The notes: generated by a model not told the origin, from the letters alone. 64,000 nucleotides of DNA from Synergistetes bacterium HGW-Synergistetes-1 (GCA_002839185.1 PGXO01000004.1:124001-188000), one strand, 5' to 3'; counted from the first letter of the stretch, positions 12,168 through 29,939 are shown. A program made the numbers and translations.

Positions 12168-12758
12168 GTGGCGAACAATATAAATTACATACAGAAGCTG
12201 CTGGACAGAGTTGGCCTGCATCAGACAGAAGATAAGGGGTGCTATATTGCCCCGCCTTTATCACTTTTTCTCAGGATCAGAAATCCGGGTTCCACACATT
12301 ATTTTCATTCACGTGTTACTTCTGACCCAGTAATATTCTATGTACCGGAACATATTATGCCGGAACCGTCAGTCGATTACTCCCTGTTATCCCATATGAA
12401 AAAAGCAGGACTCGATTTTATGTCAGGCTGTTATGTTCTCTTTCCCGCAACGGGGATTAATGCCTTTTACGTTGGCAGCAGTGAAATAAAGGCAGCCAAA
12501 TCGGACAAAGCAGATCCCTGTTCCATTTACTCTGAAATACTGAAAATAAGGGACATAAACAATAAAAACAATCCGGTGAGAAAATTTGTTCAGAAGAATA
12601 AAATATTCAGATCATATGAAGCTGCTGAATGGATCCGGTCATGCAACATCATGGTGATCCCGCTGCTGAAATGCAGCAGCCAGGACAGAATTCCTGTCTG
12701 TCAGGCGTTTACAAAATATCTTCAGTATGTTTACTCAGACATGATGCCTCTAGAGTAG
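12168..12758 (+). CDS. Unknown protein following the EcoRII/Vsr operon
   Basis: 196 residues from GTG 12168, with AAGGGTGG about ten bases upstream. No family recognised with confidence. Residues about 87-105 read GCYVLFPATGINAFYVGSS, which has the spacing of a GIY-YIG nuclease core (G-x-Y ... Y-V-G-x-S), but the Arg and Glu expected further on are not evident. It is probably the last gene of the restriction-modification operon. It is convergent with the DUF3883-like gene, and the two coding ends overlap by about 50 bases (12709-12758), which is unusual. Confidence 0.7.
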   Translation: MANNINYIQKLLDRVGLHQTEDKGCYIAPPLSLFLRIRNPGSTHYFHSRVTSDPVIFYVPEHIMPEPSVDYSLLSHMKKAGLDFMSGCYVLFPATGINAFYVGSSEIKAAKSDKADPCSIYSEILKIRDINNKNNPVRKFVQKNKIFRSYEAAEWIRSCNIMVIPLLKCSSQDRIPVCQAFTKYLQYVYSDMMPLE

Positions 12759-13869
12759 AGGCCATTTTTTTCATAAATTTAACCTCATATTTACGAGCAA
12801 TCTTATCCATATTTCTCAATTCTTTGTAATTATAAACATGGAATTTTGCCTGCTTTTTTATAAAATATATTCTGTATAAACAATAGTCGTCTTTATTTTT
12901 ATCGGCAAAATTAAGTTCGCCATCCGACATATAAAAGCCGTCCTGTTTATTTGTATCAGTAGTTTTTACCTCAATATATTTAATCTTATAGTTGTCAGAA
13001 CCTTCAATGAGACTAACAGATTTGATATCATACCCAGCCATGTCATTTTTTCCTGATACTAGTTCCACCATGCCAATCAAATCTTTTCTGTTGCTTTCTT
13101 TAAGTTTTCGACGTTCATAATCAAGGACGGCTTTTTCACCTTTGTTTCCCAGTTCCTTATTTTTTGAATCATTACTATTATATTCACCTTTGCGAGTCTT
13201 CCCCTCTGAAGGTTTACCTTTGTTTTCTCGCGGAAAATGCAGTTCTTTTTCTTCATCACTGTCACTGAGTATTATTTCATCGGGTATGTTGCCAGATTTT
13301 TTGTCTTTAGTATCATGTGTCTTTATGCTATTCAGATAATATTTATAAAATTCACTGTCAACACCAAAAATAATTTGAATAAGCTTATCATTGGTATCGG
13401 ATATATAAGCCCCACGGTGGCATTCGAGCTCTCCGGTTTTTTTTATATCATAGAACAGATTGAGTTTTTCCCTCTTACGAAGACTGGCATTTTGTTTGTA
13501 ATAATCTACAAGTTCTTTTTTTTTCGAATCAAATATATCATAAAGCCTAATTGGTTCCAGTAATTGTGTATATTGTGACAGGTCAACCTTAAAAATTTCT
13601 TTTACATTTGGTTGTTCTTTTTCATAACCAGGAGGAAGACAGTTAGTAATATAACCGTCTTCTGAAGCAATGGAATAGCCAATGAATTTAGGATCTTTAT
13701 TTTTATGTTCTAAGTGAAATATTATATCTCCTTTCCTTATTTCTTTGATTTTTGACCAAAATACAGGTTTGTGCCCTCCTTTGTCTTTTTCATCAGCCCA
13801 GGCAGATTTCTTAAACGCCCACACGCCTGTTCGATTAAGCTTTTTTCTCATTTCAATATATACTTTCAT
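12709..13869 (-). CDS. DUF3883-type PD-(D/E)XK nuclease-like protein with PUA/EVE-like N-terminus
   Basis: 386 residues. The N-terminal 1-75 (VWAFKKSAW ... KIKEIRKGDIIFHLEH ... KFIGYSIA) has the pattern of EVE/PUA-like base-reading domains: W near the start, GD before a hydrophobic strand, then GyS. The C-terminal 240-370 has the DUF3883 signature: ELGNKGEKAVLDYE, AGYDIKSVS and KYIEVKTT, consistent with PD-(D/E)XK active-site Asp, Glu and Lys. Together these suggest a modified-DNA-directed restriction enzyme; that role is inferred. It is the second gene of a leftward pair. Its ribosome site GGAGG overlaps the end of the upstream gene. Low GC (about 35%) separates it from the phage structural genes. 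Confidence 0.75.
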   Translation of the reverse strand: MKVYIEMRKKLNRTGVWAFKKSAWADEKDKGGHKPVFWSKIKEIRKGDIIFHLEHKNKDPKFIGYSIASEDGYITNCLPPGYEKEQPNVKEIFKVDLSQYTQLLEPIRLYDIFDSKKKELVDYYKQNASLRKREKLNLFYDIKKTGELECHRGAYISDTNDKLIQIIFGVDSEFYKYYLNSIKTHDTKDKKSGNIPDEIILSDSDEEKELHFPRENKGKPSEGKTRKGEYNSNDSKNKELGNKGEKAVLDYERRKLKESNRKDLIGMVELVSGKNDMAGYDIKSVSLIEGSDNYKIKYIEVKTTDTNKQDGFYMSDGELNFADKNKDDYCLYRIYFIKKQAKFHVYNYKELRNMDKIARKYEVKFMKKMASTLEASCLSKHTEDIL

Positions 13870-15696: not shown

Positions 15697-17403
15697 TTGG
15701 ACGGAAATTTACCCGAAAAAAAATTATTTTATGAATTAAAAACACAAAAAGATGTCGCAGCTTTAATTGGCTGCAAGGAACGGAGTCTGCGGTATTTTCT
15801 ATATGCTGGTAATTGCATAGTAAAATATCGCACTTTTACTTTAAAAAAAACAGATGGAAGTCAACGCATTATTTCCGCACCCATTCCTCCTCTAAAGAAA
15901 ATTCAAAGAAAACTTGCAAATATATTAAATGTTGTCTACAAACCCAAAGCCTGTGTATATGGTTTTGTTCCTAAAAAAAATTTTATAGAAAATGCGAAAC
16001 AGCATGTTGGCTGTAAATATATACTTAATATTGATTTGAAAAATTTTTTTAATCAAATCCATTTTGGCAGAGTTAGAGGAGTTTTAATGGCTAAGCCATA
16101 CCAATTATCCCAAGAGGCTGCAGGTGCAATAGCACAGCTTGCATGTTTTAATGGGACCCTTCCGCAGGGTGCCCCATCCTCGCCAATTCTTACTAATATG
16201 GTTTTCAGATCATTTGACAACGAACTCATTAAATTTGCGGCAAATAATGGTATTAAATATACTAGATATGCTGATGATATGACATTTTCTTCATATCGTA
16301 ATAAAATACCCGAAGAACTTGCCACTGTTAGTGGTAATAATGTCCGGCTAGGTACATTTTTAGAAAAGTTATTAGAAAAAAATAATTTTGAGATTAATCC
16401 TAATAAAATACATCTTTTTCTAAAAAATCAACATCAAGAGGTAACAGGTCTTACTGTTAATGCAATTGTAAATATAAACCGTAGGTATTTAGGATTACTC
16501 CGCGTTATTTTGTATAATTGTGATAAAAAAAATATTGATAATCCTATTTATGAATCAGCAAAGAGATATATTAAATTAGGTTATTGTAAAAATAATAATA
16601 TTATTGAACTAGCCAAAAATGATAAGAACAAAGATAAAATAGAGAAATGGTTCAAACAAGTTTTGATAGGCAAAGTACGCTTTATAAAACAAGTTAAAGG
16701 AGCAGATTCTTTTAGTTATTATTATTTTGCCACTCGATATAACAAGGTATTTAAAGATACAGTATTCGATCTCTCCTTATTTAATTATGTAAATATGCGA
16801 ATACAGCAAAATGTGTTTATTGTAGAAGCAGGTACTAACCAAGGAAGCGGATTTTACCTCAAAGGTTATGGATTTATAACATGTTATCACGTAGTTGAAA
16901 AAAATAAAGAAGAAAAAAAAGAAAATGAAAAAGAAATATATGATTCTGTATGTATTTATCGCTGTGTTGATAGATCAAAACAACCATTCAAACGATTAAG
17001 GAAGGAAGAAATAATTTTAAAAGATAAATTTCTTGACTATGCTCTCTATAGATTAGATGAGAATGAAGTTGAATCAGCTTATAAAATTGGGAATAGTGAA
17101 AAAGTAGAACTGGGAGAGCAAGTAACTATCATAGGATTCCCTAATTATCTTGAGCAAGATACTTTTAGTCTAATAAAAACACATATAACATCTAAGAGTA
17201 ACTTTATGAATGCCCCTGCGTTTTTAGTTGATAGTAAAATTTTTCATGGTACGAGTGGGGGGGCTGTGCTAAATAAAGACTCGGAGATTATTGGACTTGT
17301 TGTCGCAGGGTCACAAGATACAGCCTATGAATTAAAAAACGCATTTGTTCCGATACATGAAATTATGGCGTCATTAAGTTCAAAAAATATTCATGAGTTA
17401 TAA
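15697..17403 (+). CDS. Retron reverse transcriptase fused to a trypsin-like serine protease
   Basis: 568 residues from TTG 15697 (GAGG 11 bases upstream). RT part, 1 to about 340: retron motif NAKQH (99-103), DLKNFF, PQGAPSSPILTN, YADD catalytic motif (191-194) and VTG of region Y (249-251). The C-terminal about 370-568 is a trypsin-like fold with complete triad: His398 in TCYHVV, Asp447 in LDYALYRL, Ser520 in HGTSGGAVL. In retrons the RT makes msDNA from the adjacent RNA, and RT-msDNA holds an effector in check; here the effector is probably the fused protease. GC is very low compared with the phage genes, indicating recent transfer. A 200-base gap to the repressor gene follows, with no convincing gene. 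Confidence 0.92.
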   Translation: MDGNLPEKKLFYELKTQKDVAALIGCKERSLRYFLYAGNCIVKYRTFTLKKTDGSQRIISAPIPPLKKIQRKLANILNVVYKPKACVYGFVPKKNFIENAKQHVGCKYILNIDLKNFFNQIHFGRVRGVLMAKPYQLSQEAAGAIAQLACFNGTLPQGAPSSPILTNMVFRSFDNELIKFAANNGIKYTRYADDMTFSSYRNKIPEELATVSGNNVRLGTFLEKLLEKNNFEINPNKIHLFLKNQHQEVTGLTVNAIVNINRRYLGLLRVILYNCDKKNIDNPIYESAKRYIKLGYCKNNNIIELAKNDKNKDKIEKWFKQVLIGKVRFIKQVKGADSFSYYYFATRYNKVFKDTVFDLSLFNYVNMRIQQNVFIVEAGTNQGSGFYLKGYGFITCYHVVEKNKEEKKENEKEIYDSVCIYRCVDRSKQPFKRLRKEEIILKDKFLDYALYRLDENEVESAYKIGNSEKVELGEQVTIIGFPNYLEQDTFSLIKTHITSKSNFMNAPAFLVDSKIFHGTSGGAVLNKDSEIIGLVVAGSQDTAYELKNAFVPIHEIMASLSSKNIHEL

Positions 17404-17605: not shown

Positions 17606-18328
17606 TTAGAACGCTCTTTTAGGAAATCCCTTCTTCACTGTAGCGACTACTTTACCGATGATCCGAAACCAGGAAGGATCTGCAGCATAGGCAGCTTCAA
17701 TATGTGTGGGACTGTAATTCGGGTTTGCCGGACGCAGTTCAACGCTTCCGTCAGGGCAGAAGATAACCCACTTTATCATCCATGATCCGTCACAGGATAT
17801 AAGCGCTGCGTCCCCGTTCATAACTTCTTCCGCCGGATTTATTACTGCATTCGCTCCCTCTTCAAGCCCGGCACCTGTCATTGAATCTCCTTCAATGGGA
17901 ATGGCAAAGGGTTTTCTTGTTTCGTCCAGACATTTGAAAGTGCTGGCTTCCACAAAGATATTTTCGGTGGATTCAGGAGTCACCCCGTAAAGTCCGTTTC
18001 CTGCGCCGCAGGAAGCGGCAGTTGCCATTGTCAGAAGCGGAATCTCCAGAAATTTGGTTCCTAATCGGACGTTTGATTTCTCTTCTATTATAGGTTTTGC
18101 CTTTTGCTCTAGTTCTTCACTAATTTCTATTTCGCCCATAAGGTATGACAGCGGTTTATTAATTTTTTCAGAAAATGAGCGCAACATAGTCATGGAGGGC
18201 GTCTTTTTCCCTCTCTCCAATTCGCTGTAATATGCTTGGGTAATTCCAAGAATCCTCGCCATCTCTCCCTGAGCATTATTACCACGTATTTCTTTTAAAA
18301 CTTCACAAAACTCTCTAATTTTCATCAT
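17606..18328 (-). CDS. CI-type phage repressor (XRE HTH plus S24 autoprotease)
   Basis: About 240 residues from ATG 18328. The longer frame to 18403 runs through the promoter and operators and is rejected. N-terminal XRE helix-turn-helix (QGEMARILGITQAYYSELERGKKTPS). C-terminal LexA/S24 peptidase with Ser in IEGDSMTG and Lys in WMIKWV; a likely cleavage site lies in the ASCGAGNG stretch. RecA-stimulated self-cleavage is expected to induce the prophage. No ribosome site precedes the start, and the predicted -10 box (18335-18340) ends six bases before the ATG, so the mRNA is probably leaderless, as for lambda cI. It is divergent from the cro-like gene. Confidence 0.92.
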   Translation of the reverse strand: MMKIREFCEVLKEIRGNNAQGEMARILGITQAYYSELERGKKTPSMTMLRSFSEKINKPLSYLMGEIEISEELEQKAKPIIEEKSNVRLGTKFLEIPLLTMATAASCGAGNGLYGVTPESTENIFVEASTFKCLDETRKPFAIPIEGDSMTGAGLEEGANAVINPAEEVMNGDAALISCDGSWMIKWVIFCPDGSVELRPANPNYSPTHIEAAYAADPSWFRIIGKVVATVKKGFPKRAF

Positions 18329-18334
18329 ATTCAA

Positions 18335-18363
18335 AATATAGCTATCAGTTATCAAATTAGCAA
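18335..18363 (-). promoter_or_regulatory. Repressor promoter (PRM-like)
   Basis: On the minus strand TTGCTA (18363-18358), a 17-base spacer and TATATT (18340-18335) form a good sigma-70 promoter. The spacer overlaps the 18339-18351 operator, and the -35 overlaps the 18358-18370 operator. The predicted start point is at or next to the repressor ATG. Confidence 0.6.
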
Positions 18364-18419
18364 ACAGCCAACAGAAATATATATAGCAATTGGCTATTGA
18401 CATATTTAGCGGATAGCTA
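18339..18419. promoter_or_regulatory. Four repressor operators, consensus TAGC-N5-GCTA
   Basis: Dyad 13-mers at 18339-18351 (TAGCtatcaGTTA), 18358-18370 (TAGCaaacaGCCA), 18384-18396 (TAGCaattgGCTA) and 18407-18419 (TAGCggataGCTA). The last two are perfect dyads. They fill the space between the two divergent regulator genes and overlap both promoters, which is the layout of a lambdoid oL/oR-type control region. Confidence 0.75.
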
Positions 18420-18425
18420 TATATT
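18397..18425 (+). promoter_or_regulatory. Early lytic promoter (PR-like)
   Basis: TTGACA (18397-18402), a 17-base spacer and TATATT (18420-18425). The 18407-18419 operator lies exactly in the spacer, so repressor binding should block RNA polymerase. Confidence 0.75.
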
Positions 18426-18448: not shown

Positions 18449-18703
18449 ATGGCATTTAACGGAAAACATATTGAGCAATGGCGCGAAAAAAATAAGCTAT
18501 CGCAAAAGGAATGCGCAGAGCTCTTAGGTATAACTCAAGCATATCTATCAGAGATAGAAGCAAATAAAAAAGTTCCTAGTGTATTACTGCTGGAAGCTAT
18601 GTCAGAAAAAACAGGAAAATCTGTTGAGCATTTTTTTATATCAAACCCTACACCACCCCCTGCGGGGTCGGAAGCTCTGCAGGGGGAGATGAAAACAGAT
18701 TAG
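18449..18703 (+). CDS. Cro-like XRE regulator, probably shortened by a frameshift
   Basis: 84 residues with an XRE helix-turn-helix (SQKECAELLGITQAYLSEIEANKKVPS) very like that of the CI protein in this switch, and a good ribosome site (GGAGGTGAT). It should bind the same TAGC-N5-GCTA operators. After residue 65 the frame runs through a C-run (18656-18660) into a short tail ending at 18703. The next frame stays open to 18924 and looks coding. The related gene at 21429-21824 is an undivided HTH plus C-terminal domain of 131 residues, so this gene probably lost or gained a base in the C-run, or uses frameshifting. Confidence 0.8.
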   Translation: MAFNGKHIEQWREKNKLSQKECAELLGITQAYLSEIEANKKVPSVLLLEAMSEKTGKSVEHFFISNPTPPPAGSEALQGEMKTD

Positions 18704-18924
18704 GTTCTGATCCAAAAGATTTTCTGCTCCGGGCTGTAGAGGTAATGGAGTCGGTCCGGGAAGCAAATGAACTGGTGGATGAGCCGCAGGAAATAGCACT
18801 GATCATAAAAGACTGCGCCGACGGTACCCCGGACGAAGATATCACCCAGCAGTGGATCGACAGGGTAAAGGAAAGCGTCAGAACATGCCGGGAACTGTTA
18901 GAGGCGGTTGGGGTTAAGGAATAA
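18655..18924 (+). pseudogene. Out-of-frame C-terminal domain of the cro-like gene
   Basis: The frame is open from before the C-run to TAA 18922-18924 and reads ...DPKDFLLRAVEVMESVREANELVDEPQEIALII...VKE. It is acidic and helical, with normal codon use, and has no good start of its own (ATG 18745 lacks a spaced ribosome site). The last codons and the following 20 bases resemble the end of 21429-21824, and a 25-bp box follows in both places. I read it as the detached C-terminus of the cro-like regulator. Confidence 0.6.
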
Positions 18925-18941: not shown

Positions 18942-18968
18942 GCACCATGACAATCGAATACCGGGCTT
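18942..18968 (+). repeat. 25-27 bp box, copy 1
   Basis: Core ATGACAATCGAATACCGGGC preceded by GCACC. It lies 17 bases after the end of the cro-like C-terminal frame and 8 bases from the stop codon of the leftward Abi-alpha-like gene. One of five copies. Confidence 0.9.
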
Positions 18969-18976
18969 GTTGCAAA

Positions 18977-19669
18977 TTAAGCAATACAAGCTTTTATAAA
19001 CTGCACTCCTAGAGGTGTTAGCTTAACAATATCAGTGCCTCCAGTTTGAACAGATTGCTTACCGTTCACAAAAACATTATTAGAAGGGAAAAATATGGTT
19101 ATACACTGCAGCCGCAACAAATTGTAAATTGATAAATCATAATCTGTTCCTAGCAAACACCTATTATCAAGATGATCGTTATTAAGATAATCGTTCTTCC
19201 GTAGTATTTCTTTTGTTATGGAAGCAGAATCTAGCCATTTTCCGTCCTCTAATATTTTTTTATGAAAATATTCAAGAATTTTTGCATCTTTGGGGTTTAA
19301 TCCTTTTATTATCTGAAAAAATGCAACTGATAAATCGGTAGGGTCAAAATTAGGATCGACGGCATTTGCCAGAAGTTTTGCCCAGAGTTCCTGCAATTCA
19401 GACTGATCTTCAACAGAAGCGCCCTCAAGGTAAAGAATCCCAAATTTAGTAGTGATATCTCTTAGCTGTTCTTTGCTGGTAATCCCGCGTTTCTTAAGAA
19501 ATTCAACTGCTTTTTGACCTACCGAGACTGCGTTCTCCATTTGCCACAGTTTTATCCATTCTCCGCCAATCATTACGGCACTTTGACCTACAGCACCGGC
19601 TACAGGGAGAAGGGATCCTCTTAGAAGATCTGTAAGAAGCTCCGGAGTGATAAGACTCATTAACGCCAC
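18977..19669 (-). CDS. Abi-alpha-like (DUF4393) abortive-infection family protein
   Basis: 230 residues. The N-terminal third has a hydrophobic helix (LLPVAGAVGQSAVMIGG). The central EDQSELQELWAKLLANAVDP matches the signature of the Abi-alpha/DUF4393 family, whose members occur in phages and defence loci. The C-terminal half looks like a winged-helix fold (ILEYFHKKIL...LTPLGVQFIKAC). It is the last gene of a leftward three-gene operon after the pentapeptide-repeat channel (41-base gap). Its stop is next to box copy 1. Function in exclusion of other phages is an inference. Confidence 0.75.
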   Translation of the reverse strand: MALMSLITPELLTDLLRGSLLPVAGAVGQSAVMIGGEWIKLWQMENAVSVGQKAVEFLKKRGITSKEQLRDITTKFGILYLEGASVEDQSELQELWAKLLANAVDPNFDPTDLSVAFFQIIKGLNPKDAKILEYFHKKILEDGKWLDSASITKEILRKNDYLNNDHLDNRCLLGTDYDLSIYNLLRLQCITIFFPSNNVFVNGKQSVQTGGTDIVKLTPLGVQFIKACIA

Positions 19670-19710
19670 CCTTTCTGAATTAGAATTTAAGTAGCTACTA
19701 CGTTTTGCGC

Positions 19711-21099
19711 TTATTCTTTTTTAATTTTCTGTTCAGGTGCCAGGGATTGGAAAAGTATGCCAAGACGTGTTACAAGAACTGCAAGTATGAAATAACCAAT
19801 CATCAAATTAAAGGTTACAAAGAACAGCGCGAAAAATGTTGCCCATGGTGCACTTTCTTGAATGGCAACGTTTATCCCTCCGAAACCTAAGGTCACCATT
19901 GTGGAAACAGCAAAACAGAAGGCAGACATGAAATTAAGCCACCAGTTACCGGTTATTTTGAGGTTAGACAGAACTGCCGGATCAGGATTTAAGTACGCTA
20001 TTGCTAAGTAGACGAGTGTAAAAGACAAACTTACAACGAGGAATGTTTTAGATATCCTGACGGTGTTACTTCCATAATCCGACAACCACCAGAAAAGACG
20101 TATCGGAAGTGTTTTAATCCTGCCCCAAAGTGACTTCTCTTGTTCTTTATAATAGTTATTCCATGCAATACGGCGGATGTTCGTTTTTAATGCAGCAAGA
20201 AGGGATGGCTCTACCTTTGCGGAATCTAGGCCAACCATGGTAAAGTTCGTTTTTTCATCTATAGTACAACATCTAATCATTGTTTCGCCATTTACAGTTG
20301 TGCCTGTGAAATTAGCTCCCTTAAGGTTAGTCTTTGTGTCTTTTATGTCTTTTAAGACCATCTCACCACACATAAATGTGCCTTTCAAAACAGCATCCTT
20401 TAAATTTGCGTTTTCAATGTTAACCATCCATAAAGTTGCATCTGTGAAATCAGTAAATTGAAGATTTGCATTCTGAAGATTGGTTTGCCACAAGTTTGCT
20501 TCTTTAAGATTTGCACCATCTAGGTTGGCGTTTTTTAAATTTGCGCCATTAAAACTTGTATCTTTAAGGTTTGCTTCACTTAGGTTTGCATTTTCTAAAA
20601 TAGCATCTCCAAACTTAGCGCCTTCAAGGTTTGCATATGCCAAAGTTGCATTTTTTAAGCTTGCACTTGACAGGCAAGCAGCTATTTCATCTTCTAAATC
20701 ACCATGTTTGAGCGAGGTGTTATTGGGATTTGTCTGCATATCAAGAGATGCTTTTCCAAGATTTGCCATGCGTAAATTGATATCATCAAGAATAGCATGT
20801 CCCAAATCAACCCCTTGTAAAAAGGCTTCTGTTAAATCAGCATTATTAAGATGCGCGTAAGGCATAAATGCCCCTTCTAAATGTGCTCGAATCATAACAG
20901 CATTATCTAAATTTATGTTTGTTAATGTAAATCCAGCTAGTGGGGCGTCACAAAGGTTAATTATTCTTTTGGGGTGTAATTTACGCCATTCGTTCCACTC
21001 TGAAATGTCTTCAGTTTCAGAACAGCGTTTGAGCATAGCAAACTGATCTGGGGCATATCTTATCTTTTCCGGAATAGCGTAACACTGTGTTTTTTCCAT
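19711..21099 (-). CDS. Pentapeptide-repeat protein with C-terminal two-TM ion channel
   Basis: 462 residues. Residues about 55-270 are pentapeptide repeats (A[N/D]LxxA: LKNANLDGANLKEANLWQ), forming a right-handed beta helix. Residues about 335-450 have two TM helices with an ion-channel pore between them: WWLNFMSAFCFAVST MVTLGFGG, where TLGFGG replaces the K+ filter TVGYG. A cytosolic sensor joined to a membrane pore fits a regulated channel. It begins 4 bases after the XRE repressor gene, with which it must be cotranscribed, and precedes the Abi-alpha-like gene. Position in the immunity region suggests superinfection exclusion or membrane-depolarising defence (inference). Confidence 0.85.
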   Translation of the reverse strand: MEKTQCYAIPEKIRYAPDQFAMLKRCSETEDISEWNEWRKLHPKRIINLCDAPLAGFTLTNINLDNAVMIRAHLEGAFMPYAHLNNADLTEAFLQGVDLGHAILDDINLRMANLGKASLDMQTNPNNTSLKHGDLEDEIAACLSSASLKNATLAYANLEGAKFGDAILENANLSEANLKDTSFNGANLKNANLDGANLKEANLWQTNLQNANLQFTDFTDATLWMVNIENANLKDAVLKGTFMCGEMVLKDIKDTKTNLKGANFTGTTVNGETMIRCCTIDEKTNFTMVGLDSAKVEPSLLAALKTNIRRIAWNNYYKEQEKSLWGRIKTLPIRLFWWLSDYGSNTVRISKTFLVVSLSFTLVYLAIAYLNPDPAVLSNLKITGNWWLNFMSAFCFAVSTMVTLGFGGINVAIQESAPWATFFALFFVTFNLMIGYFILAVLVTRLGILFQSLAPEQKIKKE

Positions 21100-21103
21100 T
21101 TTT

Positions 21104-21334
21104 TTATCCCCGTTTGGGATCGTCAGAACGTCCTACAAGATAATCCAGCGATACATCAAAGAAGTCGGCAAGGGCAACTGCTTTTTCAAGAGTAGTTGTT
21201 CTGGTTTCTCTTTCTATGTCGCAAATGAAAGCCTTAGAAGTTGCACCGACTGCAATGGCAAGTTCGCTTTGAGATATTCCTTTTTGGTTTCTTAGAAAGC
21301 GAACCCGGGACGAAAAAAGTTTTTTATCAAACAA
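21104..21334 (-). CDS. Second phage-type repressor (XRE HTH)
   Basis: About 76 residues from TTG 21334, with AAGGGGGG seven bases upstream; the longer frame to 21454 crosses the operators. One XRE domain (SQSELAIAVGATSKAFICDIERETRTTTLEKAVALADFFDVSLDYLVGR), with no peptidase domain. It heads the operon repressor, channel, Abi-alpha and is divergent from the 21429-21824 regulator, with operators between. It is therefore a complete second switch, independent of the CI switch 3 kb away, since its operator sequence is different. Confidence 0.85.
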   Translation of the reverse strand: MFDKKLFSSRVRFLRNQKGISQSELAIAVGATSKAFICDIERETRTTTLEKAVALADFFDVSLDYLVGRSDDPKRG

Positions 21335-21347
21335 AATATAACCCCCC

Positions 21348-21403
21348 TTGACAGTACGCATAAAGCGAACTAAGATATTAAACATAGTACGCAATATGCG
21401 TAC
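21348..21403. promoter_or_regulatory. Second switch: operators GTACGC-N5-GCGTAC and rightward promoter
   Basis: Two dyads: 21354-21370 (GTACGCataaaGCGAAC) and 21387-21403 (GTACGCaatatGCGTAC, perfect). The rightward promoter TTGACA (21348-21353), 17 bases, TAAGAT (21371-21376) has the first operator exactly as its spacer. Binding by the 21104-21334 product would shut the promoter of 21429-21824. Confidence 0.75.
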
Positions 21404-21428
21404 CAAGGTAAAAGGAGAGGAGCGATTA

Positions 21429-21824
21429 ATGAAGCAAACTTTAAACATTCGCAAGTTACGTCAATCAAAGGGCTGGACGCTTCAATATGTCGGTGATGCA
21501 GTAGGACTCAATAAAACAGCAGTCTACGACATAGAGACAGGACGCAGAAAACCTTCATATGACGTTCTTGTAAAACTTGAAACCCTATTCAAAAAAAAGC
21601 ATGACTGCCTGTTAGCGCAGGCAGAAGAAACAACACAAGGGAATTATAACAGTTCGGGACAAAACGGAGTAGCCGAAGCAAAGGAGCTTAACGAAGCGGC
21701 GCAGGATTTCATGATCGATGTTGAAACAATCCTTGATATCGGAGAAGACGGACGCCTTGACTGCCCCGAAAGGAGGGCCAAAGCGGAACGTATCAGAAAA
21801 GCACTCGAGGCGGTGCTGGAATAA
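21429..21824 (+). CDS. XRE regulator with acidic C-terminal domain (cro position of the second switch)
   Basis: 131 residues from ATG 21429 (GGAGAGGAG upstream). N-terminal XRE helix-turn-helix (SKGWTLQYVGDAVGLNKTAVYDIETGRRKPS). The C-terminal about 60 residues are acidic and helical (ELNEAAQDFMIDVETILDIGEDGRL...RKALEAVLE), like the detached frame at 18655-18924. It stops 16 bases before box copy 2, mirroring the gene/box order at 18449-18968. Probably a lytic-direction regulator acting against the second repressor. Confidence 0.8.
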   Translation: MKQTLNIRKLRQSKGWTLQYVGDAVGLNKTAVYDIETGRRKPSYDVLVKLETLFKKKHDCLLAQAEETTQGNYNSSGQNGVAEAKELNEAAQDFMIDVETILDIGEDGRLDCPERRAKAERIRKALEAVLE

Positions 21825-21840
21825 GAATCAAAGCACCGCC

Positions 21841-21866
21841 GCACCATGACAACCGAATACCGGGCT
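21841..21866 (+). repeat. 25-27 bp box, copy 2
   Basis: GCACC plus ATGACAACCGAATACCGGGC, one base different from copy 1. It lies 25 bases before the GTG start of the 21892 frame and 16 bases after the end of 21429-21824. Confidence 0.9.
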
Positions 21867-21891
21867 AAATTATTTTAAGGAGTTGATTATT

Positions 21892-22158
21892 GTGTCATTC
21901 CTTCATCTGATTGAAAAAATAAAAGAAACAGAGTCAGTGGACGAAGCAAATCGCATGCTTTCTGATGGTTGGTCAGTTATTCAGATTTATTCTCCTGAGC
22001 CATCCCGCCGAATTCTCGTATTAGGTCTGCCTCGTAAGCTATTTCCTCAGGGGTTCTGTGATCGACCTCATGGAACTCTGGAACACCGGCAGGTCGGCCA
22101 AGGTAATAGTCGACGCTCTGATGGTCCCAGAGATGCGGTGATGGATCAAAACATATAA
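21892..22158 (+). pseudogene. Truncated small gene, N-terminal part related to 21977-22297
   Basis: GTG 21892 follows AAGGAG by nine bases. The first about 35 codons look real (FLHLIEKIKETESVDEANRMLSDGWSVIQIYS) and share the VN..L..GW.IL.I pattern with the opposite-strand gene 21977-22297. After that the frame only reads the complement of that gene. I interpret it as a gene fragment cut off when the opposing unit was inserted or inverted. Confidence 0.5.
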
Positions 22159-22297
22159 CGCATATTTTTAATATTTTCCATCCCTGGTCCAAGTGGTCGT
22201 TTACCTCTTGCTCCTGTAAGCCAGAAAACCCATGAATCATCTTAACTTCCACGATGCTATGAAGAAGTTTATCGTCGCATTCCGCAATATCAGCCAT
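21977..22297 (-). CDS. Small phage protein with a GW motif (DUF1737-like)
   Basis: 106 residues. The start ATG 22297 has GCAGAGGTG upstream and lies 16 bases after box copy 3, read in the same direction. Central EVNDHLDQGWKILKI resembles the short VN..L..GW domain found in small phage and plasmid proteins. The C-terminus (HRTPEEIAYEADLIREF) is a charged helix. Function unknown. The related truncated frame on the other strand begins after box copy 2. Confidence 0.65.
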   Translation of the reverse strand: MADIAECDDKLLHSIVEVKMIHGFSGLQEQEVNDHLDQGWKILKICVICFDPSPHLWDHQSVDYYLGRPAGVPEFHEVDHRTPEEIAYEADLIREFGGMAQENKSE

Positions 22298-22313
22298 TTG
22301 TCACCTCTGCAAT

Positions 22314-22339
22314 AGCCCGGTATTCGACTGTCATGGTGC
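22314..22339 (-). repeat. 25-27 bp box, copy 3 (inverted)
   Basis: Read on the minus strand: GCACC plus ATGACAGTCGAATACCGGGC. It precedes the leftward gene 21977-22297 by 16 bases. Confidence 0.9.
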
Positions 22340-22376
22340 AAAACAATCATAACACCAAGAGGATGGGGGTGAAGAA

Positions 22377-22538
22377 ATGCCTGACGGAACAATGACATCT
22401 GATGAAAGAGAGCAGCTTAAAGACAACATGTTGAAGTTTGTTAATCGCCAGCTTGATCCGAAGTGTCCGGCAGACAAAGACCCGGAAGTAATGAGGATAC
22501 TCCCGAGTCTCATTGAAACGCTTACCAGAGGAATATGA
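22377..22538 (+). CDS. Small phage protein, 53 residues
   Basis: ATG 22377 is preceded by GGGGGTGAAG at good spacing. The product begins MPDGTMTSDEREQLKDNML and has one Cys and a charged helical make-up (DPEVMRILPSLIETLTRGI). It fills the interval between box copies 3 and 4. Unknown function; supported by ribosome site and codon use only. Confidence 0.6.
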   Translation: MPDGTMTSDEREQLKDNMLKFVNRQLDPKCPADKDPEVMRILPSLIETLTRGI

Positions 22539-22564
22539 ATTAGTCATAACACCTGATTAACACC

Positions 22565-22591
22565 GCACCATGACAATCGAATACCGGGCTT
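22565..22591 (+). repeat. 25-27 bp box, copy 4
   Basis: Identical to copy 1 over its 27 bases (GCACC plus ATGACAATCGAATACCGGGC plus TT). It precedes the start of the 22616 membrane-protein gene by 24 bases. Confidence 0.9.
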
Positions 22592-22615
22592 GAAAAAACA
22601 AGAGGAGGTATGTGT

Positions 22616-22822
22616 ATGTTGACTCTTGGTGCCGAATCAATGACTGCAGAATATTTCGCCTGGGCAAGAGGTTATTTCTGGCTTGCTATGGGATTGGGAG
22701 TCTGCTATTTGATTACCAAAAAAGATGTTGTATTTTTAATGTTTGAAGGAATAATGATCCTTTCATTTGTCTTCCGTTATATCGGCAGACTTTGCCTCTA
22801 TGTCTTTACTGGCGACGTTTGA
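22616..22822 (+). CDS. Small two-TM membrane protein
   Basis: 68 residues from ATG 22616, seven bases after AGGAGG; the ATG at 22610 is too close to that site. Two hydrophobic helices (YFWLAMGLGVCYLITK and VVFLMFEGIMILSFVFRYIG). It lies in the cassette between boxes 4 and 5 and is convergent with the repeat-protein gene, with a 60-base overlap of coding ends. Small membrane proteins here may act in superinfection exclusion (inference from position). Confidence 0.65.
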   Translation: MLTLGAESMTAEYFAWARGYFWLAMGLGVCYLITKKDVVFLMFEGIMILSFVFRYIGRLCLYVFTGDV

Positions 22823-23729
22823 TATGGGGGGTGTAAGTACATCGTTTCCTATTATTATTGGGGCTTCGTAATAGTAACGATAACGATCTCCCATAAAATA
22901 GGTGATAGCAGGAGCTTGTTCATTAAATAATGGAAGGGCTTGAGGTTCACACCACGGGAAAATAGCAGATGGCCCCTTATAAACAAACCCTATAATGTGT
23001 CCCCAAATTATCAGTTTTCCCGCAAAAGTTGTTACATCATTAAAAATTTTTACTAGAGGTATGCTTTTAATTTTATCAAAATGTTTTTGAACAGCAGATA
23101 GTATAGTTCTGTCTAGCGAAGCTTCGGTCCTTTTGTCTGTGAGATAGTCTAATGCGATATTTCCGTCATCGTCGCCCATTTTAAGAATGGCTTGAGTTTG
23201 GATTTTTCGTTCTTTAAAGGCGAGTGAAGATGATATTTCGTTTCCAATTTTTTCAAAAACCAGTTCGTTATTGAGAATAGCTTCATTGACTTCAGTTACC
23301 CCATCGAGGGAATAATTTTTGATTTCAGGAAATTCTATCGTGCTATTTTTATAAATAAGACGGTCATAGACGGACATTGATTTACTAAGTGCTTCTATTG
23401 CAGATTTATATCCAGACATATCAGAAAGGCTATATATTGATTCACGAAGCGCATCTGCTACAGATTTATAGCCTGACATGTCGGGATAGACGGACATGGA
23501 TTTACTAAGTGCTTCTACTGCAGATTTATATCCAGACATATCAGAAAGGCTATATATTGATTCACGAAGCGCATCTGCTACAATAACCTGACATGTCAGG
23601 ATAGACGGATATGGATTTACTAAGTGTTTCTACTGCAGATTTATATCCAGACATATCAGAAAGGTTATACATTGATTTACGAAGTGATTCTGATTTATTC
23701 AAAATTATCTTTAAATCATCATTATCCAC
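22763..23729 (-). pseudogene. Repeat protein gene with a 5-base deletion in the repeat region
   Basis: GTG 23729 has TAGGAGTG upstream. The N-terminal part is built of about 20-residue repeats of two alternating types: DMSGYKSAVEALSKSMSVYP and DMSGYKSVADALRESIYSLS. The C-terminal about 150 residues (FDKIKSIPLVKIFNDVTTFAGKLIIWGHIIGF...) are non-repetitive, with a hydrophobic segment. Compared with the next repeat (near 23463), five bases are missing after 23582, which shifts the frame and stops translation. The downstream frame is open from an ATG at 23539. Restoring the five bases gives one continuous protein of about 323 residues. It lies downstream of inverted box copy 5. Function unknown. 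Confidence 0.75.
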
Positions 23730-23786
23730 TCAAATCACTCCTAAATACAGTATAGAATATTATGTTATTAACTCAGTAAATATATC

Positions 23787-23811
23787 GCCCGGTATCCGAC
23801 TGTCATGGTGC
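23787..23811 (-). repeat. 25-27 bp box, copy 5 (inverted)
   Basis: Read on the minus strand: GCACC plus ATGACAGTCGGATACCGGGC. On the plus strand GCCCGG ... CCGGGC at 23787-23816 can pair and is followed by ATTTTTATAT, so this copy may double as a weak terminator. It precedes the leftward repeat-protein gene by 57 bases. Confidence 0.85.
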
Positions 23812-23864
23812 CGGGCATTTTTATATTCTGAAACGATTATATCAGCAAGGAAGGAGGAATAAAC

Positions 23865-24137
23865 ATGCAGCCATTTACGGGACAGTTTGTGATGATGCCT
23901 AAAGAAGAGTATCAGGCGATTGTTGATATGACCAACAAAGTAGACAAGATCCTGAAAGAGATCACTTCAAAAACTTTTTCGCATCCCTTTACAGAAGACA
24001 ACCCCTGGCTTACCGCGCCCCAGTTCTGCAATAAGTATTCCATAGGGAGATCGACCCTTGTGCGTAAGGTAAAGGAAGGGAAGGTTGAAATCCTGGATCA
24101 GGAAGAACACATCAAAAAATACAGGCGGGTGATTTAA
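23865..24137 (+). CDS. Small DNA-binding protein, excisionase/MerR-like
   Basis: 90 residues with AAGGAGGAAT upstream. The C-terminal half (WLTAPQFCNKYSIGRSTLVRKVKEGKVEILDQEEHIKKYRRV) has the helix-turn-helix pattern of excisionase/AlpA-like proteins: T-x-x-x-F/C-x-x-x-x-I-x-R-S-T-L. It could be the excision factor or an early regulator. It is first of a run of tightly packed small early genes. Confidence 0.65.
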   Translation: MQPFTGQFVMMPKEEYQAIVDMTNKVDKILKEITSKTFSHPFTEDNPWLTAPQFCNKYSIGRSTLVRKVKEGKVEILDQEEHIKKYRRVI

Positions 24138-28567: not shown

Positions 28568-29395
28568 ATGTCAACATATTTTGAATCGAAACTTGGCCGC
28601 TTGTATCACGGTGACTGCATGGAGCATTTTGGAAAGATCCTCAACGGATCGGTTGACATGGTCCTCTGCGATCTGCCCTACGGCATCACGGACTGTAAGT
28701 GGGATGTAAAGATCCCGCTTGCGCCTCTCTGGCGCGAATGGGGACGGGTAGTTAAGGAAAACGGGGCTGTTGTGCTTACTGCACAGCAGCCCTTTGCTAC
28801 GGAGCTTATTGTTTCGTCCGGAAGGATGTTTAAATTCCGGTACGAGCTTATATGGGAGAAAGCAAAAGCCCTGGGCTTTCTTAACGCACGGAAGATGCCG
28901 CTTCGGGCACATGAAAATATCCTGGTCTTTTACCGCCATCTGCCGACATACATACCGCAGATGACACGAGGAACTCCCTACAAATCCAAGGACCACGGGA
29001 AACAGACTTCTATATACGGCAAATTCAGGGAGCAGAAATCCGAGAACAATACCGGGACACGTTATCCGAGAAGCGTGCTCCGTTTTCCGCAGGAAGGACA
29101 GACAAACCATCCTACCGAGAAACCTCAGGCCCTGTTTGAATGGCTTATCCGCACATACACGCGTCCTGGTGATGCTGTCCTGGACAACTGCATGGGATCA
29201 GGGACAACTGCAGCTGCATGCGAAGCGACAGGGCGGCGCTGGATCGGAATGGAACTCTCCGGGGAGTTCTGCCGTATGACTAAAGAAAGGATAGAAAAAG
29301 CAATCCAGGAAGGTGATCAAAATAGAAAAGACGATTCCGATAAGAACTCAGCCGGAGATACATTCATTCCTCCGCTGCCTGAAAAACTGGAATAA
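28568..29395 (+). CDS. Phage DNA methyltransferase (amino-methylase, N6-adenine or N4-cytosine type)
   Basis: 275 residues. Motif IV is DLPYG (residues 36-40), in the beta-class order, and the AdoMet motif is near the C-terminus: VLDNCMGSGTTAAACEATGRRWIGMEL. NHPTEKPQALFEWLIR is typical of phage N6-adenine or N4-cytosine methylases. No nuclease partner is adjacent, so it is probably an orphan anti-restriction or regulatory methylase. The gene end overlaps the recombinase gene by 83 bases. Confidence 0.9.
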   Translation: MSTYFESKLGRLYHGDCMEHFGKILNGSVDMVLCDLPYGITDCKWDVKIPLAPLWREWGRVVKENGAVVLTAQQPFATELIVSSGRMFKFRYELIWEKAKALGFLNARKMPLRAHENILVFYRHLPTYIPQMTRGTPYKSKDHGKQTSIYGKFREQKSENNTGTRYPRSVLRFPQEGQTNHPTEKPQALFEWLIRTYTRPGDAVLDNCMGSGTTAAACEATGRRWIGMELSGEFCRMTKERIEKAIQEGDQNRKDDSDKNSAGDTFIPPLPEKLE

Positions 29396-29939
29396 AACCT
29401 ATTATGTTGCTGCGCTTATAGGAATTAACTGGGGGCTGAGATGCTCTGACATACTGGCGCTGCAGGTTGGTGATGTGCTGGCAGGTTCAGGGTCACGCAT
29501 CCAGATAATTGACAGGCTTATGGTAGTTGAGATCAAGACAGGTAAGGAACGCCATATATTCATGACCGACAAAATGAGACAGGAACTCCACTCTCACATT
29601 AAAAACATGAAAAACTGGACGAGTGAAACGCCTCTTGTCCTGTCTCAGAAAAAGGGATCGGGAGGAAAGCTTAAATCACTGAGCCGTCAGCACCTTTGGC
29701 ACGTAATAACTGTGGCTGCAAATGAAGCCGGAATAAAAGGATCGATCGGCACACATTCTCTTAGGAAGACATACGCATACCAGGCATGGAGAAATGGAGT
29801 TGGTGTTGATGTCCTTCAGCGTGAATTTGGTCATGTATCCGTACAGACTACACACAGATATGCATGCATTCCTGATGAACAGCTGGAAAACATCTACCGT
29901 AAGGTGGACTTTGGTATGTCGGGTAAATATGTGAAATAG
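29313..29939 (+). CDS. Second tyrosine recombinase-like protein
   Basis: 208 residues from GTG 29313, although the ribosome site AGGAAG touches the start, so the exact start is uncertain. Catalytic residues are present: Arg in GLRCSDIL, HxxR as HSLR, His in GHVSVQTT, Tyr in HRYA. It lacks the arm-binding N-terminal domain and most of the core-binding domain. It is far from the att sites and sits between the adenine methylase and terminase genes, where similar proteins occur in other phages. Likely role is not integration; perhaps late regulation or genome processing. Confidence 0.8.
   Translation: MIKIEKTIPIRTQPEIHSFLRCLKNWNKTYYVAALIGINWGLRCSDILALQVGDVLAGSGSRIQIIDRLMVVEIKTGKERHIFMTDKMRQELHSHIKNMKNWTSETPLVLSQKKGSGGKLKSLSRQHLWHVITVAANEAGIKGSIGTHSLRKTYAYQAWRNGVGVDVLQREFGHVSVQTTHRYACIPDEQLENIYRKVDFGMSGKYVK

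Follow-up and report, generated by a model that had tools for sequence, protein, structure and literature searches.

Five boxes around a prophage gene slot

In the early region of a prophage in Synergistetes bacterium HGW-Synergistetes-1, a slot of accessory genes is bordered and subdivided by a 25-bp box, GCACCATGACARYCGRATACCGGGC, present in five almost identical copies. The prophage lies in a stretch of 64,000 nucleotides (GCA_002839185.1, PGXO01000004.1:124001-188000), here called the window, and gene calls throughout are based on open reading frames (ORFs). Boxes 1 (18942-18966), 2 (21841-21865) and 4 (22565-22589) are on the + strand, and boxes 3 (22315-22339) and 5 (23787-23811) are on the - strand. 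The initial annotation had listed five boxes of 25-27 bp, and these are real: a 20-mer core has five matches in the window at 0-2 mismatches and none in 100 shuffled windows. Its position for box 3, 22314 (-), was off by one. The full 25-mer has these five copies only in the whole 2.17-Mb assembly, and a reversed control pattern has 0 matches. The copies vary at three positions (12, 13 and 16). The outermost boxes, 1 and 5, are both oriented inward, toward the cargo, which the initial annotation had overlooked. An Rfam scan of the window gave no match at the boxes, and a similarity search of the prophage region against phage records gave none either.

Four of the five boxes lie 17-57 nt 5' of a same-strand gene start with a ribosome-binding site (RBS)-like motif, in line with the 16-57 bases proposed earlier. 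Box 1 is the exception, because the next genes are antisense to it. Box 2 is 16 nt 3' of the stop codon of an XRE-like regulator and 26 nt 5' of a same-strand start, and box 4 is 20 nt 5' of a membrane-protein gene. Box 3 is located just 3' of a predicted extended -10 (TGTTATGAT), and the gene that it leads follows 17 nt on (21977..22297, -), with an RBS-like motif. Among 20 box sites in Synergistaceae, 14 have a same-strand start with such a motif within 90 nt, where the random expectation is 13%.

The left flank of the slot contains regulatory genes. A CI-like repressor (17606..18403, -; phrog_4 transcriptional repressor, E 4e-27) is the left neighbor of the early operon, and a predicted PR-like promoter, TTGACA-17-TATATT (18397..18425, +; 11/12 in a consensus scan), precedes a Cro-like XRE regulator (18449..18703, +; HTH_3, E 2.6e-13). 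A small conserved gene, orf59 (18745..18924, +), comes next and ends 17 nt before box 1. It precedes a box in three related sequences as well (G002, L006 and L009) and is partly conserved in a fourth (G017). We take this place, after the CI/Cro pair and a small gene, to be the nutR position of lambda, with box 1 as a boxA-type element in it.

On the right, box 5 follows a leftward extended -10 (TGATATAAT; 23836..23844, -) by 33 nt. This -10 is kept in all five prophages discussed below, with the right-border box 32-33 nt downstream of it in each. The slot border is the first gene of the downstream early operon (23865..24137, +; phrog_575, weak), which goes on to include replication genes (DnaD-like and DnaC-like). 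In four relatives an antirepressor-like gene, annotated as phrog_63 in G002, stands between the slot and the first early-operon gene. As had been claimed, the boxes have no recombinase next to them; the closest integrase-like gene found (29313-29939, +) is in an unusual place, between the replication genes and the terminase.

The cargo begins with an Abi_alpha abortive-infection protein (18977..19669, -; PF14337, E 2e-22; PADLOC PDC-S47, E 5e-12) and a pentapeptide-repeat protein with a channel-like C-terminus (19711..21099, -; PF00805, E 3e-43; IRK/Ion_trans_2 below cut-off). The second XRE-like regulator (21348..21824, +) is called from its open frame and sequence. A predicted promoter, TTGACA-17-TAAGAT (21348-21376), overlaps its first start, and a later ATG at 21430 is a likelier start than 21348. 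The gene led by box 3 is followed by a 53-aa gene (22377..22538, +) and, after box 4, by the 70-aa membrane protein (22610..22822, +), which is found also behind the single left box of G002. A repeat protein (22763..23539, -) shares its C-terminal part with a cargo protein of G002, and its frame was possibly once continuous with 23562-23729. Over 22763-23729 (-) this protein has internal repeats (MSGYKSAVEALSKSMSVYPD) in two frames, split near 23540-23600; compared with L031 7453-8493 (-), the C-terminal part is common and the N-terminal halves are unrelated. Cargo genes are often antisense to the transcript coming in from one side. The slot of L009 holds a candidate defence protein (PDC-S42, E 2.5e-32) and that of L006 a 213-aa protein with no family match, and at least two of the five slots contain candidate defence genes. 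Of the cargo proteins that were scanned, none was identified as a transposase or recombinase.

Relation of the box to ribosomal boxA

Judged by its sequence, the box is the ribosomal boxA antitermination element of the host family; it is not a start-associated sequence, and it is not a site dedicated to recombination. The presence of the motif in the ribosomal RNA (rRNA) leaders and spacers of that family had been missed in the initial annotation. BoxA is the binding site of the NusB-S10 pair (PMC6614801), and in E. coli it is found in the rRNA leader after promoter P2 and again upstream of 23S (PMC10250234). The motif sites in Synergistaceae are in these same two places, the 16S leader and the 16S-23S spacer, which supports the boxA identity. 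Genes for both NusB (PF01029, E 1.5e-27) and Rho (TIGR00767, E 5e-194) are present in the host genome.

Since the host's own assembly contains no 16S gene that could be found, genomes of the same genus were used for comparison. A 3-mismatch search of these also matched GCACCATGACAGTTGAATACAGGGA, with the start of the 16S rRNA (Rfam) about 200 bases downstream. The order at the 16S-associated sites is promoter, GC-rich hairpin, box and 16S. In rRNA operons from eight Synergistaceae genomes, 20/22 16S leaders and 15/15 16S-23S spacers have the core GCACCATGACAA (≤2 mismatches) on the sense strand, and none of 229 control stretches (antisense, far upstream or inside 16S) has it. When the window is scored with a weight matrix built from 15 distinct rRNA-leader sites only, the five boxes take ranks 1-5 (26.5-28.6 bits), followed by a site of 13.1 bits; the shuffled-window maximum is 18.8. 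The rRNA sites had been chosen by a 12-base core, and positions 13-25 were hence scored separately; these alone put the boxes in the top 0.04-0.12% of window positions. The GAATACnGGGC part downstream of the core is common to boxes and rRNA leaders, and positions 12, 13 and 16, which vary among the phage boxes, are variable among the rRNA leaders too.

Related prophages and the seams of the slot

The same box is present in the IMG/VR contigs L006, L009 and L007/L008 and in several genomes of the host family. A search independent of the box, with orf59, retrieved the genomes G000, G002 and G017 and, among viral contigs, L009; L006 carries orf59 according to the ORF list and an alignment. All five homologous prophages found have a box or boxes at the slot. 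At the left border (box 1 and its counterparts G002a, L006b and L009b), identity is 65-84% over the 90 bases that lead up to the box and near chance over the 60 bases that follow. At the right border, the outer flank of box 5 is 74-94% identical to that of four counterparts, and the inner flank is near chance. G002 lacks the segment from box 1 to box 4: the left flank of window box 1 is joined directly to the right flank of box 4 (96% over 60 bases), and the switch from left to right flank falls inside the 25-bp box. In G017 the order is orf59, 53-aa gene and box, with no box between the two genes, so that the window has an extra box1-box3 unit at this place.

Outer similarity that ends at the box, together with differing cargo, supports a role of the boxes as cassette borders. 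The initial annotation had suggested either the start-associated sequences of some actinobacteriophages or cassette boundaries. The boundary part is upheld by the conserved outer flanks, the differing inner flanks and the deletion in G002; the other part falls, since the sequence differs and the box is a Synergistaceae rRNA boxA. The relatives found all carry boxes, and the boxes are not scattered.

These seams would also be expected if the boxes were primarily blocks of short DNA homology for cassette swapping, with the likeness to rRNA boxA reflecting only where the sequence came from. Similarity between prophages does end at the box, left and right of the slot, G002 looks like the window with boxes 1 to 4 collapsed into one, and the extra unit relative to G017 fits as well. 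This account is nevertheless unlikely, as it leaves unexplained the strand-specific placement after stop codons or promoters and a match to the rRNA leader that extends past boxA into the sequence downstream of it. A pure homology block does not require a transcription orientation. Nor does this account explain single boxes with unrelated flanks, which occur in the phage-like contigs G043, G046 and G047. In another contig, L036 (G011:C113), a long and perfectly paired stem (ACATAAACGCCCGG...CCGGGCGTTTATGT; fold z -7.35) has the box core, at 80-104, in its loop.

Probable antitermination across the slot

The boxes are probably host-type rRNA operon (rrn) boxA antitermination signals that act across the accessory cassettes and double as short shared recombination seams. 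The match to the leader and spacer boxA of the family, the strand and position of the boxes and the seams at them are the observations behind this reading; binding of Nus factors to box RNA, read-through, and homologous recombination at the boxes as the origin of the seams would account for them. The boxes would act in RNA, when the strand with GCACCATGACA is transcribed. The NusB-S10 pair of the host, with NusA and NusG, would load on the box RNA, and the modified RNA polymerase would then ignore Rho and possibly also weak terminators downstream. From box 1, the early rightward transcript could cross the accessory slot, pass the terminator-like complement of box 5 and enter the early operon. 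Box 5, just after the conserved leftward promoter, would have the equivalent role for the leftward transcript, and the internal boxes would lead additional accessory units. With antisense cargo, the polymerase would be on long untranslated RNA, as it is in rRNA operons and CRISPR arrays with a boxA. The 25 bp at the head of each unit are the same, so the boxes can serve as recombination seams and may let recombination swap, add or delete cassettes without loss of expression.

The right border may have a dual role. On the + strand, the predicted fold of box 5 is a 10-bp stem with ATTTTTATA after it; in the G017 counterpart the stem has 12 bp and leads into a longer run of U. Since the complement of box 5 folds like a terminator and a leftward promoter lies upstream of the box, this border may stop transcripts from one side, a function predicted from the fold, and serve as an antitermination leader for those from the other.

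Several points weigh against the antitermination reading. By inspection, only 7/11 positions of the box fit GYTCTTTAANA; this consensus is gammaproteobacterial (PMC5725501), and the host is one of the Synergistaceae, whose own boxA the boxes match in its place. The boxes are closer to each other than to any rRNA leader seen (nearest 21-22/25), which leaves room for a second role, and with no 16S gene found in the host's assembly its exact leader is unseen. Only five homologous prophages were found, a small sample with two from one metagenome and 4-5 informative per border. With the boxes flipped, gene starts are likewise more frequent than random (8/20 Synergistaceae sites), because border boxes stand between divergent starts. 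No same-strand gene comes directly after box 1 or after either L009 box, and antitermination from these would have to span hundreds of antisense bases. The case rests on sequence, orientation, position and seams, and binding, transcripts and read-through are its predictions.

A more tentative idea, with the balance slightly against it, is that of a 'plug-and-play' slot. Two inward boxA signals, each behind a phage promoter, would make an inserted cassette expressible either way regardless of Rho, and the same 25 bp would provide the homology for trading defence cassettes. Signal and joint would then be one element under joint selection.

Start-associated or promoter elements that control the initiation of translation or transcription have been proposed for mycobacteriophages, where the start-associated sequence (SAS) is the 13-bp GGGATAGGAGCCC at translation starts (PMC3203893). 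A function of this kind for the boxes is improbable. The 14/20 sites with a nearby same-strand start speak for it, and ATGACA resembles a -35 hexamer in the consensus scan. Like SAS, the box is a repeated asymmetric element ahead of a subset of non-structural phage genes, but SAS has 11-19 copies, has not been reported as a ribosomal boxA and shows no resemblance to the box by inspection. A same-strand start next to the box is lacking at box 1 and at the two L009 boxes, and in rRNA operons the element is downstream of the promoter. In phages with tRNA arrays (see below), a -10 placed at the usual distance from TTGACA would overlap with the first tRNA. The -35 reading of ATGACA/TTGACA was rejected on these last two grounds, the rRNA copies being downstream of a promoter and the tRNA-array copies too near the tRNA.

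Least credible, and disfavored, is the view that the boxes are the ends (terminal inverted repeats) of mobile cassettes on which a transposase or recombinase acts in trans: boxes 1/5, 2/3 and 4/5 face inward around cargo, an inward pair is present in relatives too and the box1-box3 unit looks inserted relative to G017, but the same sequence is found in rRNA leaders and spacers, many copies are unpaired, no target duplication is evident at the G017 site, the scanned cargo lacks an identified mobility enzyme, and a conserved promoter and gene ends lie just outside the boxes.

One of the closest known parallels is rrn boxA itself, which has the same core in the leaders and spacers of the host family, is strand-specific and follows a promoter or an upstream gene. 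Unlike it, the prophage box has five near-identical copies, which are located at cassette borders and 5' of genes for accessory and defence functions. The lambda nutR/nutL system (boxA, boxB and N) is similar in the position of box 1 after CI/Cro, in box 5 leading a leftward transcript and in a terminator-like hairpin downstream of box 1. It differs in that the boxes have an rrn-type sequence, no conserved boxB-like hairpin after them and no recognized N-like protein. The fold of the box 1 region is no more stable than those of shuffled sequences (z -0.54), and no sequence or hairpin common to the regions after the boxes was found. No early ORF scanned matched an antiterminator family; N proteins are short and divergent.

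Ribosomal boxA is reused outside rRNA operons, ahead of CRISPR arrays and suhB, according to PMC5725501 and PMC7862264, the latter also describing, after Stringer et al., a boxA that serves the long untranslated RNA of CRISPR arrays. There, boxA protects a long untranslated RNA or has a part in gene regulation. The prophage boxes are a similar reuse, but are repeated, located in a prophage and tied to cassette exchange. P2-like prophages and P4-like satellites have defence hotspots with varied anti-phage genes in a fixed slot (PMC9122126). The slot described here is likewise fixed between conserved phage genes, but has the same 25-bp transcription signal at each border. A partial coverage of the literature gave no case of boxA with prophage, moron or accessory genes, and in our judgement its use at prophage cassette borders has not been described before. 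A ribosomal-operon signal seems to serve a plug-in gene slot in two ways, as its expression leader and as its joint. If true, temperate phages would use ribosomal antitermination, known from rRNA, suhB and CRISPR arrays, for their accessory and defence cassettes too. It would offer a concrete answer to an old question, how phage cassettes are swapped into operons without polarity, and would make the host's own rRNA boxA a searchable tag for variable defence slots of prophages in little-studied phyla.

A related sequence, GCACCTTGACAAYYGAATA, modelled on divergent Synergistaceae sites, has 72 sites in viral contigs. It is 14-25 nt 5' of a same-strand tRNA at 29/72 sites (14 distinct contexts) and in flipped orientation at 0. 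The tRNA is mostly the first of an array of up to 24 tRNAs, in contigs L044, L055, L068, L079, L080, L084, L106 and others among L044-L113. GCACCTTGACAAYYGAATA may thus be a boxA-like head of phage tRNA arrays, a parallel to the prophage boxes and not proof, which would add these arrays to the uses of ribosomal antitermination. The overlap noted above makes a promoter reading unlikely at the arrays; elsewhere in the viral set it is possible. TTGACAA-type viral matches were kept out of the main evidence because some could be true -35 boxes.

Other putative defence genes are located left of the slot. Beside the CI repressor is a retron of type XI, a fusion of a reverse transcriptase and a trypsin-like protease (15697-17403, +; PADLOC RT-Protease_XI, E 8e-158), and a protein at 12709-13869 (-) gives a PDC-S36 match and type II restriction-enzyme-like ones.

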